Positions 37,621 to 41,776 of a stretch of 64,000 nt of DNA are shown here, piece after piece (position 1 is the first letter of the stretch; each line of letters starts with the position of its first letter). The position numbers were made by a program, and so were the translations under genes. This stretch comes from Streptomyces sp. R41 (GTDB lineage Bacteria; Actinomycetota; Actinomycetes; Streptomycetales; Streptomycetaceae). The notes beneath the pieces are model-generated. The model had not been told where the DNA came from, ran no database searches, and worked only from the letters and a program-made list of their open reading frames with translations. The stretch lies in the NCBI RefSeq assembly GCF_041053055.1, contig NZ_CP163443.1, positions 2,666,001 to 2,730,000 on the forward strand. The letters are read 5' to 3'.

Positions 37621-37801
37621 GGGAGGCGCAGCAAATGGAGCGTGCCCGAGATCAGGAGTCGGCGACGGACTTAGCCAGATGCTCTACCGAATTGAGCTAC
37701 ACCGACCCGAAGTCGATGACGGGATTTGAACCCGCAACCGTCCGATCCAATGAAGTAACCGTTGCCTGCGCACCGGGCACCCACCATGAGCTGCGCCTCC
37801 C
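37621..37801 (-). ncRNA. Y RNA-like RNA with circularly permuted tRNA-like domain (copy 1)
   Basis: The minus strand folds as a Y RNA. A perfect 12-bp end stem joins GGGAGGCGCAGC and GCTGCGCCTCCC, followed by a 2x2 internal loop, ATGG/CCAT and GTGCCCG/CGGGCAC. Beyond it lies a tRNA-like module in permuted order. The T arm is GCGGG-TTCAAAT-CCCGT, then a closed 7-bp acceptor-like stem CATCGAC/GTCGGTG, TA, and a D arm GCTC-N9-GAGC. This is the layout expected when a tRNA is entered through its anticodon stem, as in YrlA RNAs. Ends are estimates from the outer stem. It is 48 bases upstream of the TROVE gene. Confidence 0.85.
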
Positions 37802-37873
37802 GAGATCAAATCGGCGGCGGCGTGGATTCTTTGAGAGAGAAGTAGCCGCAGCCCGCGCACCGGGAGGTGCATG

Positions 37874-38035
37874 AAGTTGTGGTGTCCAGAGTTCAAGGCC
37901 GACGGAACCGACGTAGGTGCTCTAACCCCTGAGCTACACCGGCGCGTTGTACCGGTGGCGGGACTCGAACCCGCGGCCGCCCCATTATGAGTGGAAGTAG
38001 GTCCTGCCTTCGCACCTGGACGTGCACCACTTTAG
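37874..38035 (-). ncRNA. Y RNA-like RNA with circularly permuted tRNA-like domain (copy 2)
   Basis: A second RNA upstream of the first has the same order. The T arm is GCGGG-TTCGAGT-CCCGC, then a 7-bp closed acceptor-like stem CACCGGT/GCCGGTG with a 7-base loop, TA, and a D arm GCTC-AGGGGTTA-GAGC. The outer stem pairs GTGGT and GTCCAG with CTGGAC and ACCAC, with a 4-base bulge on the 5' side, resembling the bulged Ro-binding stem. Primary sequence differs from copy 1 outside the tRNA-like core. Ends are approximate. It is not a normal tRNA because the T arm precedes the D arm and no anticodon loop lies between them. Confidence 0.82.
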
Positions 38036-38067
38036 GAGGGCGGCCGCGGGTCGAGCCATTGAATTAA

Positions 38068-40134: not shown

Positions 40135-41292
40135 GTGAGCCAGCCCGAAATGATGCGAGGACCGACTGGTGGTCAGCTGAGTGACAGCTCCCGCCAGCAA
40201 GCGAATTCAGACTTCCTGCGGCCGCAGTCGCCGCTGGCCAATGTCGTCGGCTTCGGCCACGGCGTGAAGTGGATCGACGGACAGGCCACGGGCGAGGCAG
40301 CCGTGCTGGTGTTCGTGACCCAGAAGGTTCCGGAGTCCCAGCTTCCCGAGCGGGACGTCATCCCGCGGGTGATGGACGACGGCACCCCCACCGACGTAGT
40401 CGCGGTCGGCCATGTCGCCGCGCAGCGTCAGCAGCAGCGCAGGACCTCGCCCCGCTCCGAGGACCGCGGCGCCTACCAGCCCGACGGCAGCATGGCCGAG
40501 CAACTCGCCGGCCTCTCACAGCCGTTGCTGGAAGAGCTCAGTGGGCTTGGACAGTTCGAGCCGCAGCTCCTCAAGCGCCGTATGCGCCCGTCCCCTTCCG
40601 GCTTCTCGGTCGGCAACGTACGGGTGACCGCGGGCACACTGGGCAGCGTGGTGTACGACTTCCTGCCGGGCGCCACCGTCGACCCCCCGGGGCCCGGCCT
40701 CGGCACACCGTCGAAGTTCTACATCCTCTCCAACAACCACGTGCTGGCCGACTCCAACCGGGCACAGCTGGGCAGCGCGATCCTGCAGCCCGGAGTGTTC
40801 GACGGCGGCACGGACCCGGCGGACCGCATCGCGACCCTGGACCGGTTCATCACGATCCAGTTCGCACCGCAGACCCCGGTGGAGCGCCACAACAACGTGG
40901 TCGACTGCGCGCTCGGCGCGGTGGAGTTCCAGGACGCCACCCGTGAGCAGTACTTCAGCGGTGCGCCGCGCGCCTGGCGGCGCAAGGCCAACGTCGCGGT
41001 CGGCGACCTGGTGAAGAAGACCGGCCGCACGACGAACATCAGCTTCGGCCGGATCATCGCGGTCGACGCCACGATCGACGTCAGCTACGGCACGGCGGGG
41101 ACGGCCCGGTTCAAGGACCAGATCCTGACCACGAACATCTCGGCGGGCGGCGACTCCGGTTCGCTGGTGACCTCGCTCGACAACGTCGCGACCGGTCTGC
41201 TCTTCGCGGGCTCCTCGGTCGTCACCGTGGCCAACCACATCGAGAACGTTCGCACACTGCTGCGGGTGGAAATCGCCGAGCAGCTGGCCTGA
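40135..41292 (+). CDS. Trypsin-like serine protease with N-terminal pro-domain-like region
   Basis: This 385-residue protein has a C-terminal chymotrypsin-like peptidase domain. The catalytic triad is readable as His202 (LSNNHVLAD), Asp257 (NNVVDCALG) and Ser341 (SAGGDSGSLV). Residues 34-97 repeat the fold of the small upstream protein, and a Gln/Arg-rich, leucine-rich linker lies between (100-155). No secretion signal is evident, so it is probably cytoplasmic or exported by another route. The start is GTG at 40135, 71 bases after the small gene. The substrate is unknown. Confidence 0.87.
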   Translation: MSQPEMMRGPTGGQLSDSSRQQANSDFLRPQSPLANVVGFGHGVKWIDGQATGEAAVLVFVTQKVPESQLPERDVIPRVMDDGTPTDVVAVGHVAAQRQQQRRTSPRSEDRGAYQPDGSMAEQLAGLSQPLLEELSGLGQFEPQLLKRRMRPSPSGFSVGNVRVTAGTLGSVVYDFLPGATVDPPGPGLGTPSKFYILSNNHVLADSNRAQLGSAILQPGVFDGGTDPADRIATLDRFITIQFAPQTPVERHNNVVDCALGAVEFQDATREQYFSGAPRAWRRKANVAVGDLVKKTGRTTNISFGRIIAVDATIDVSYGTAGTARFKDQILTTNISAGGDSGSLVTSLDNVATGLLFAGSSVVTVANHIENVRTLLRVEIAEQLA

Positions 41293-41329: not shown

Positions 41330-41776
41330 ATGACCACGCAGGCCAAGCGGCAGAAGAGCCACGCCGGCTCCGAGCACCGCTTCCACAACCCGCAGGGCGC
41401 GGAGGTCAAGACCCGGGACGAGGCGTTCGCCTCACAGCAGGACGTCTCCGTCGAGGCCGTCTCCACGTCCGCCCAGCTGGAACTGCACAACGGGGCGGTC
41501 ACCTTCGCCATCGAGGTGAAGTACAACCCCAACACCTACCCGCACGTCGTGACCGGCGGCAAGATCACCTCCGGCATCTGCGGCGCCCCCTGGGACATCA
41601 CGGGCGGCTACGTAGGGGAAACGATCCGCCTCGACGCGAAGCGTGCCGGCCAGGGCTCCTGCGCCAACACGATCACTATCGTCGGCGAGTTCCAGAACCC
41701 GCCGGCCTACCGCGGCACCTACGGCTTCAACGGCGCGACGTCGTCGTTCAAGCACACGACGCGGTACCACTGCTGA
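41330..41776 (+). CDS. Hypothetical beta-rich protein, third gene of the protease set
   Basis: This 148-residue protein is not recognised. It has a charged N-terminus and, from about residue 45, a beta-rich domain (LELHNGAVTFAIEVKY, GGKITSGICGAPW, NTITIVGEFQNPPAYRG) with two cysteines that could pair and a C-terminal TTRYHC. The TGA stop lies inside the first copy of a 24-base tandem repeat. Without that stop, translation would continue for about 22 codons. It follows the protease by 37 bases in the same direction and has no signal peptide. A GGGAAT site precedes the ATG. Confidence 0.75.
   Translation: MTTQAKRQKSHAGSEHRFHNPQGAEVKTRDEAFASQQDVSVEAVSTSAQLELHNGAVTFAIEVKYNPNTYPHVVTGGKITSGICGAPWDITGGYVGETIRLDAKRAGQGSCANTITIVGEFQNPPAYRGTYGFNGATSSFKHTTRYHC

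Follow-up and report, generated by a model that had tools for sequence, protein, structure and literature searches.

Permuted tRNA genes of algae and archaea carry the 3' part of a tRNA upstream of its 5' part and yield working tRNAs, and tmRNA and other tRNA mimics set a tRNA-like fold into an RNA that is not a tRNA. Metazoan Y RNAs can have a layout free of any tRNA module. In bacteria, the YrlA family (Rfam RF02553) is built from a permuted T arm, a sealed acceptor stem, UA and a D arm held within a stem, and lies beside a TROVE gene. The excerpted accounts of bacterial Y RNA (PMC8394870, PMC4726728) give it a known role with Rsr and PNPase, and the first of them lists YrlA as a substrate of DusA and TruB. 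In the excerpted Salmonella work (PMC7790460), the RNA repair operon is rsr-yrlBA-rtcBA, and the tRNA-like domain of YrlA is suggested to be a competitive inhibitor of a tRNA nuclease.

The window analyzed here, a stretch of 64,000 nucleotides from Streptomyces sp. R41, holds three Y-RNA-like elements, RNA1, M and RNA2, all encoded on the minus strand and ahead of a TROVE gene (Table 1). All three have the core GGUGCG..GGC..UACUUC in common, and RNA1 and RNA2 carry a permuted tRNA module in which the T arm is followed by a sealed acceptor-like stem, UA and the D arm. Judged from sequence, the module order and the neighborhood are those of bacterial Y RNA. A sequence-only reading of the same DNA had described two such RNAs, each with a T arm, a closed 7-bp stem, UA and a D arm inside an outer stem. 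The description holds for both, the MFE folds giving closed stems 7 and 8 bp long, but the two-member array that it implied is ruled out: M, which has no module, is a third member present at every locus compared. Besides M, that reading overlooked the anticodon stem-loops and the promoter-like site; its interval, ending at 38035, takes in the -10 box.

Table 1. Features of the Y-RNA-like array and the adjoining TROVE gene (positions in the window)
Feature	Position	Strand	Basis
-10 box TAAAGT, at array head	38029..38034	-	sole conserved promoter-like site found
RNA1, Y-like RNA with an entire tRNA in circularly permuted order	37884..38021	-	62/81 loci
RNA1 anticodon stem-loop UUCCA(CUCAUAA)UGGGG; loop as in tRNA-Met(CAU)	37980..37996	-	sequence comparison
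RNA1 T arm	37958..37974	-	Rfam YrlA match, MFE fold
RNA1 acceptor-like stem, loop-closed, no free 3' end	37937..37957	-	MFE fold
RNA1 D arm	37919..37934	-	MFE fold
M, compact Y-like RNA, same core, without tRNA module	37793..37869	-	81/81 loci
M anticodon-like hairpin UUCU(CUCUCAA)AGAA; loop as in tRNA-Glu(CUC)	37827..37841	-	sequence comparison
12-bp helix around RNA2, 5' strand; overlaps 3' strand of M's own 7-bp stem	37790..37801	-	
RNA2, YrlA-like, class-I-type module in the window	37642..37782	-	Rfam YrlA 40.2 bits
RNA2 T arm	37719..37735	-	MFE fold
RNA2 closed acceptor-like stem	37700..37718	-	MFE fold; covaries in Leu-like form
RNA2 D arm	37681..37697	-	MFE fold
12-bp helix, 3' strand, just before TROVE start region	37621..37632	-	
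GAATTCGGGGGAATTC palindrome, presumed Shine-Dalgarno GGGGGA in loop	37577..37592	-	sequence; putative ribosome-site role
TROVE/Ro60-like protein gene, 526 aa	35993..37573	-	Pfam PF05731 and PDB TROVE matches

The array departs from RF02553 in that RNA1 and RNA2 fall below the gathering score, RNA1 adds an anticodon arm, M lacks the module, and RNA2 alternates with a Leu-type module whose variable region is longer in 34/39 copies. It resembles the permuted tRNA genes of algae and archaea in the precedence of the 3' tRNA part over the 5' part, but here the cut point forms part of a Ro-type stem, and anticodon identity drifts. The tRNA-like fold in a non-tRNA RNA recalls tmRNA and other tRNA mimics (treated in the excerpt of PMC8394870), yet unlike tmRNA the array RNAs have neither an open 3' acceptor end nor an mRNA part. 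M shares with the module-free metazoan Y RNAs, as laid out in the excerpt of PMC4726728, a stem, an internal-loop core and a pyrimidine-rich top; however, it sits in an array with module-bearing RNAs, and the likeness is one of layout, with no homology claimed. As in the excerpted description of the Salmonella rsr-yrlBA-rtcBA operon, more than one Y-like RNA is encoded with a TROVE/Rsr gene, but here the RNAs precede TROVE and there is no rtcB or rtcA among the five neighbors scanned. The literature searched, a body of partial texts with key bacterial Y RNA papers lying outside it, describes no module-less bacterial Y RNA alongside YrlA, none with an anticodon arm and no Leu-type module, and the novelty of module-free and anticodon-bearing bacterial Y RNAs is provisional.

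The earlier claim that a TROVE gene follows the RNAs on the same strand is confirmed by matches of its product to Pfam TROVE (PF05731, 3.9e-13) and, over residues 250-515, to the PDB TROVE proteins 9kop and 9l5y (1.5e-28). The protein matches none of the PADLOC defence models and no NCBIfam family. On its minus-strand site the array has this gene on one side and a PhoX gene on the other. Pfam scans of five neighbors returned PhoX, a sub-threshold NAL1_N-like protein, GntR/FCD, PALP and one product without an assigned family; no RtcB, rtcA or nuclease family was found among TROVE and these five. The NAL1_N match belongs to the protein at 40135-41292 (24.4 bits, cut-off 27), whose gene adjoins that of a small protein without a Pfam match (41330-41776).

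The locus set (n = 81) consists of the window's own locus and those of the best 80 among 245 TROVE relatives, a choice that under-samples divergent relatives; 79 of the 80 are named Streptomyces and one Actinobacteria bacterium. Because the relatives were fetched by TROVE, adjacency to TROVE holds in them by construction, and related sequences inflate the counts reported here. TROVE was detected in 11 of 396 genomes of a phylum sample and in eight of the 12 same-genus ones, the window's own genome counted. The TROVE tree on which changes were scored is a quick one, with 35 of its 78 inner branches starred.

Conservation across the 81 loci settles that the elements are real: M is found at all of them, RNA1 at 62 and the RNA2 module at 79. 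By folding energy the single RNAs are little better than shuffles (z-scores of -0.47 for RNA1, -1.86 for M and -1.47 for RNA2), and the stronger signal is that of the whole region (-4.38). The anatomy that we propose for the array is well supported; its expression, TROVE binding and function we infer. The shared core sits in a putative Ro-binding stem, with an inner helix that covaries in M and outer stems that are invariant in M and RNA1, and it would presumably bind the TROVE protein. Several other ideas were considered by eye and dropped. A coding CxxCGYF-like repeat in place of the core motif was abandoned because reading frames differ among loci, and a small protein starting at an ATG after M (GGGAGG..ATG) was discarded, the ATG being missing at L045, L023 and L020, among others. 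The pairs of RNA1 and M loops that were compared show no complementarity of the kind needed for kissing.

Rfam searches gave a mixed answer to the covariance-model check that the sequence-only reading had proposed. RF02553 matches RNA2 over its full length (40.2 bits, E 3.3e-7) and RNA1 in the core only (32.9 bits, E 4.2e-5), both below the gathering score of 69 bits, at which nothing was found in the window or among 198 phylum genomes. YrlA scores do not settle identity, because adjacent tRNA-Asn genes score the same: two tandem tRNA-Asn genes of the same genome, outside the window (C1:3547054-3547166), reach 40.8 bits, the end of one and the start of the next mimicking the permuted module. 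The search also gives matches in 6 of 14 control genomes, and Rfam scores were rejected as proof of the array. Tandem tRNAs are a trap for YrlA searches; they are also a possible origin of such modules. A tandem pair near TROVE, described earlier as less common when upstream, is not unique, as the excerpted Salmonella operon rsr-yrlBA-rtcBA illustrates and as a distant genome of the same phylum (L167) also suggests. There, tandem YrlA matches at 383-436 and 560-667 (35.9 and 45.9 bits) precede a TROVE gene of 26% identity, and the UUACUUC of the Streptomyces core precedes both modules. The stretch looked at upstream of a second divergent TROVE gene (G023, L166; 65% identity) contains a single compact Y-like element, which has a perfect stem of 12 bp and lacks the tRNA module. 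Near TROVE in L159 (1358-1466; the same stretch as L164 2219-2327), a match to the nematode RNA RF01656 (37.7 bits, gathering 38) adjoins a YrlA match of 40.2 bits.

RNA1 has the parts of an entire tRNA in permuted order. In 62/62 RNA1s, UACUUC is followed by UUCCA-(7 nt)-UGGGG, then by a variable region, the T arm and the rest of the module. Once un-permuted by a cut at 26/27, with flanks including CCA, all 62 are called as tRNAs by ARAGORN, compared with 1/62 in native order and 0/310 when the 3' half of the un-permuted sequence is shuffled within the same flanks; ARAGORN finds no contiguous tRNA in the window. The upstream half best matches tRNA-Met(CAU) in 45.3 of 62 cases (ties shared) and the D-arm half tRNA-Arg(CCU) in 51 of 62; RNA1 is thus a composite and does not copy any single tRNA. 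All the arms are present in the MFE fold of the window's RNA1, but the centroid is without the anticodon arm. RNA1 shows almost no covariation because it is so conserved (1 of 30 pairs in alignment A3, which holds 50 of the 62 RNA1s, 53 being distinct). An exact search for the anticodon-arm pattern finds it in 78 of 392 genomes of the genus (0 for the reversed pattern) and in 7 of 216 genomes of a class sample, that is, in 7 of the 18 within the genus and none of the 198 outside it.

Variation in the anticodon arm of RNA1 is concentrated at a few positions. Across the 62 loci the loops are CUGAUAA (29), CUCAUAA (20), CUGUUAA (3), CUGCUAA (3), CUCUUAA (2) and CUCAUCA (2), with CUCGUAA, CUACUAA and CUUUUAA once each; across the 78 genomes, a sample that may overlap the first, they are CUCAUAA (30), CUGAUAA (23), CUCUUAA (10), CUGUUAA (4), CUCAUCA (3), CUUUUAA (3) and CUCCUAA (2), with CUCAAAA, CUUCUAA and CUCUUGA once each. 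Most are loops of real tRNAs: 59/62 are identical to a tRNA loop of the window's genome, and 73/78 in the genome sample likewise. Among distinct CUNNUAA loops, pooled, 9 of 10 are real tRNA loops, compared with 10 of the 16 possible (p 0.0076; in the first sample alone 7 of 8, p 0.059), a test that we rate as weak to moderate. Parsimony on the TROVE tree counts 22 changes at N34, the fastest of 138 RNA1 columns, 103 of which never change; N35 changes 10 times and N37 twice, and N32, N33, N36, N38 and the whole anticodon stem do not change at all. N35 is not outstanding by rate alone because other RNA1 columns are fast as well, with 13 changes each in one column of the variable region and one of the D-loop, and 11, 10, 9 and 9 in columns of the acceptor-closing loop. 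Close pairs can differ in little else: L045 and L053 agree in 138/139 RNA1 columns and have anticodons GAU and GUU, and L061 and L073 agree in 137/139 and also have different anticodons.

Beyond the core, M has just an inner helix and a small hairpin. It is full length at 68 of the 81 loci; at the other 13 it has shrunk to 33-38 nt and lost the small hairpin. The exact full-length frame is present in 77/392 genus genomes (reversed control, 0), and this framed pattern was used in place of a one-mismatch version, which hit 352/392 genomes and was useless. In alignment A2 (54 of the 68 full elements, 64 being distinct) the outer 7-bp stem never varies, two-sided changes occur at 5/8 pairs of the inner helix, and the pair closing the small hairpin is UA in 44, GC in 6, CG in 2 and something else in 2. 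Overall, six pairs show a two-sided change versus 0-3 in slid controls.

A 7-nt loop can be formed in 67/68 full M elements, size 7 being the only one looked for, and in 71/77 M of the genome sample, with U33 in 70 of the 71. When sizes of 3-10 nt compete by longest stem, 7 nt wins in 55/77, ties in 1 and loses in 21, and in the MFE fold of the window's M this place is taken by a hairpin of 3 bp and a 5-nt loop, in another register. Of the 71 loops, 33 are identical to a tRNA loop of the window's own genome and 38 are not. Counted as distinct CUNNNAA loops over both samples, 10/13 are real tRNA loops versus 21 of the 64 possible (p 3.6e-4, a value that assumes a uniform expectation); the first sample gives 8/9 (p 3.3e-4). 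Most M loops have C36 or A36.

RNA2 comes in two forms, with a class-I module at 40/81 loci and a tRNA-Leu-like one at 39/81; the module is lost at 2/81. In L020 and L063 RNA2 has collapsed to a short hairpin without a tRNA module. Among the Leu-type copies the D half is closest to tRNA-Leu in 39/39, and the upstream half is most often best matched by tRNA-Ser(GGA) or tRNA-Leu(CAA); in class-I copies the matches are Arg(ACG) for the upstream half and Asn or Trp for the downstream one. The segment preceding the T stem measures 20-28 nt in 34/39 Leu-type copies and 15-18 nt in class-I RNA2 (39/40 measurable, one mis-parsed). The alignments hold all 39 Leu-type (A1) and all 40 class-I copies (A4), and the pair counts that follow come from A1. 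Thirty of the 39 have letters at all five pairs of the variable arm; this arm and the anticodon-like stem each show two-sided changes at 5/5 pairs, and over the whole structure such changes are found at 14/39 pairs versus 2-4 in slid controls. Covariation had been proposed as a check on the acceptor-like and outer stems. In Leu-like RNA2 it is seen in the former (3/7 pairs) but not in the latter, which has no two-sided change in 39 copies; for M and RNA1 the outer stem is uninformative because it never varies. The Y RNA-like interpretation as such gains from conservation and from covariation in M and Leu-like RNA2, RNA1 being too invariant to show any.

The two forms of RNA2 have been exchanged repeatedly. 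With module loss as a third state, 21 parsimony changes are needed on the TROVE tree, and starred branches force at least 14 type changes for either form. L003 and L004 are alike at 268/270 positions up to the RNA2 module and at 54/89 within it. Since the tree is that of a neighboring gene, local recombination belongs to the explanation of this exchange.

Promoter-like sequence is conserved at the head of the array. TANRNT occurs within 22 nt before RNA1 at 62/62 loci, in 61 of them at -13. A -10 hexamer lies no more than 40 nt before M at 16 of the 19 loci that lack RNA1 and at 0/62 that have it, and no more than 40 nt before RNA2 at 3/81. The simplest reading is a single leader transcript that would run into TROVE. 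The 12-bp perfect stem of the sequence-only reading does exist, but its upstream strand overlaps M's 7-bp stem, and the 3' strand of M could pair alternatively, as a possible switch or processing site. Own pairing of this helix scores 11.85 versus 10.20 (sd 0.20) when permuted, with 0/2000 as high, kinship still being part of that figure; it exceeds the swapped mean in just 55/81 loci, and pairing is poor in, for example, L058, L005 and L036. With evidence that is only moderate, we do not treat this 12-bp clamp as a proven switch. When the whole region is folded, the MFE structure also has a 15-bp hairpin (37970-38051), which pairs DNA ahead of the -10 box with the RNA1 T arm and would destroy that arm. 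It was set aside: only transcripts reading through from PhoX would form it, and it should be missing from -10-box transcripts because its upstream strand precedes the box.

Anticodon nucleases are the best known of the partners that read anticodons. The anatomy and conservation of the array, covariation in M and Leu-like RNA2, fast anticodon change and module exchange are shown at the level of sequence. With change in the arm nearly confined to 34 and 35 and tRNA types exchanged on a fixed scaffold, a partner that reads anticodons and is specific to lineages would be expected. We therefore tentatively favor, at somewhat under an even chance, an array of Ro-bound decoys or sensors for anticodon-loop readers, of which anticodon nucleases from toxins, rivals or phages are the most plausible. 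A single promoter would produce a leader ahead of the TROVE mRNA with three Ro-binding hairpins, each a separate tRNA imitation on a shared Ro-binding stem. RNA1 would display a whole tRNA cut at 26/27, with its acceptor stem sealed and its anticodon arm exposed, M an anticodon arm alone, and RNA2 the body of a tRNA, permuted and either class-I or Leu-like; none of them, as drawn, has a free 3' acceptor end, and they could presumably not be charged. The common core would hold the TROVE protein, by analogy with Rsr and Y RNA in the excerpted accounts (PMC8394870, PMC4726728). Transcription, processing, TROVE binding and decoy or sensor action are all predicted steps of this scheme. The suggestion that the copies serve different clients fits it, with the difference lying in the tRNA or anticodon imitated, which the sequence-only reading missed. 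The more specific idea, of a single-promoter array of sealed tRNA impostors acting with Ro60 as partner as an RNA decoy or tripwire repertoire against anticodon nucleases, possibly diversifying by changes of anticodon and class, is conjectural, and we give it perhaps a one-in-three standing.

Several observations sit poorly with decoys or sensors. The scanned neighbors include no RtcB or nuclease family, and TROVE has no PADLOC match. The halves of RNA1 point to different tRNAs, Met and Arg(CCU), as do those of class-I RNA2; the M hairpin is short, with a different MFE register and 38/71 loops that are not own-genome tRNA loops. Parts of the array are missing at some loci (M hairpin lost in 13/81, RNA1 in 19/81, the RNA2 module in 2/81), and RNA1 combines a z of -0.47 and a centroid without the anticodon arm with almost no covariation. 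Fast RNA1 columns besides N34 and N35 would be equally natural in passive loops, which favors ordinary YrlA biology: the RNAs would tether TROVE to PNPase or another exonuclease and gate its substrates, with the tRNA-like parts serving as docking shapes and the anticodon loop being a passive cap. The core motif and module order common to the array, and the Rsr/PNPase role given to bacterial Y RNA in excerpt (PMC8394870, PMC4726728), speak for such tethering, which we nevertheless consider rather unlikely, since it leaves unexplained why within the anticodon arm only 34, 35 and (twice) 37 change, 34 being the fastest column of RNA1, why the loops are so often identical to real tRNA loops, and why RNA2 types are exchanged.

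A cis-acting leader, in which tRNA-like parts and the 12-bp helix switch TROVE translation, for example when Ro or a tRNA-reading enzyme binds, would suit the single promoter-like site at the array head, the presence of M at 81/81 loci and the choice of its 3' strand between its own 5' strand and the strand after RNA2 near the TROVE start. It does not require anticodon diversity, however, and the helix is poor in L058, L005 and L036 and beats the swapped mean in just 55/81 loci with kinship still in, so that we think it improbable. The context rule for t6A37 is U36-A37-A38, and RNA1 keeps these letters in 60/62 loci and 73/78 genomes, as it would if it bound or titrated the t6A37 machinery; YrlA, moreover, is itself a substrate of the tRNA enzymes DusA and TruB according to the excerpt of PMC8394870. 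One modification enzyme cannot explain both RNA1 and M, because M loops mostly have C36 or A36, and a sponge would not call for any variation at 34 and 35; targets or sponges of modification enzymes thus seem to us quite improbable. Least credible, and very unlikely indeed, is a permuted pre-tRNA processed into a working tRNA. RNA1 does make a complete tRNA when un-permuted, but two ends inside the Ro stem would have to be joined and the acceptor loop opened, and closely related species differ in its anticodon, a change that would not be tolerated in a tRNA the cell needs.

Fast change at 34 and 35 in a nearly fixed RNA1 hairpin, together with flips of RNA2 type, would give a testable reason for tRNA mimicry, namely interaction with anticodon-reading proteins. 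The natural alleles of L045/L053 and of L061/L073, nearly identical apart from the anticodon, are ready test pairs. Models of the family that draw only on YrlA overlook members without a module or with an anticodon arm. The question addressed is what bacterial Y RNAs do past exonuclease tethering, and if the decoy or sensor reading is true, Ro60 RNPs would be tied to tRNA attack and defence.
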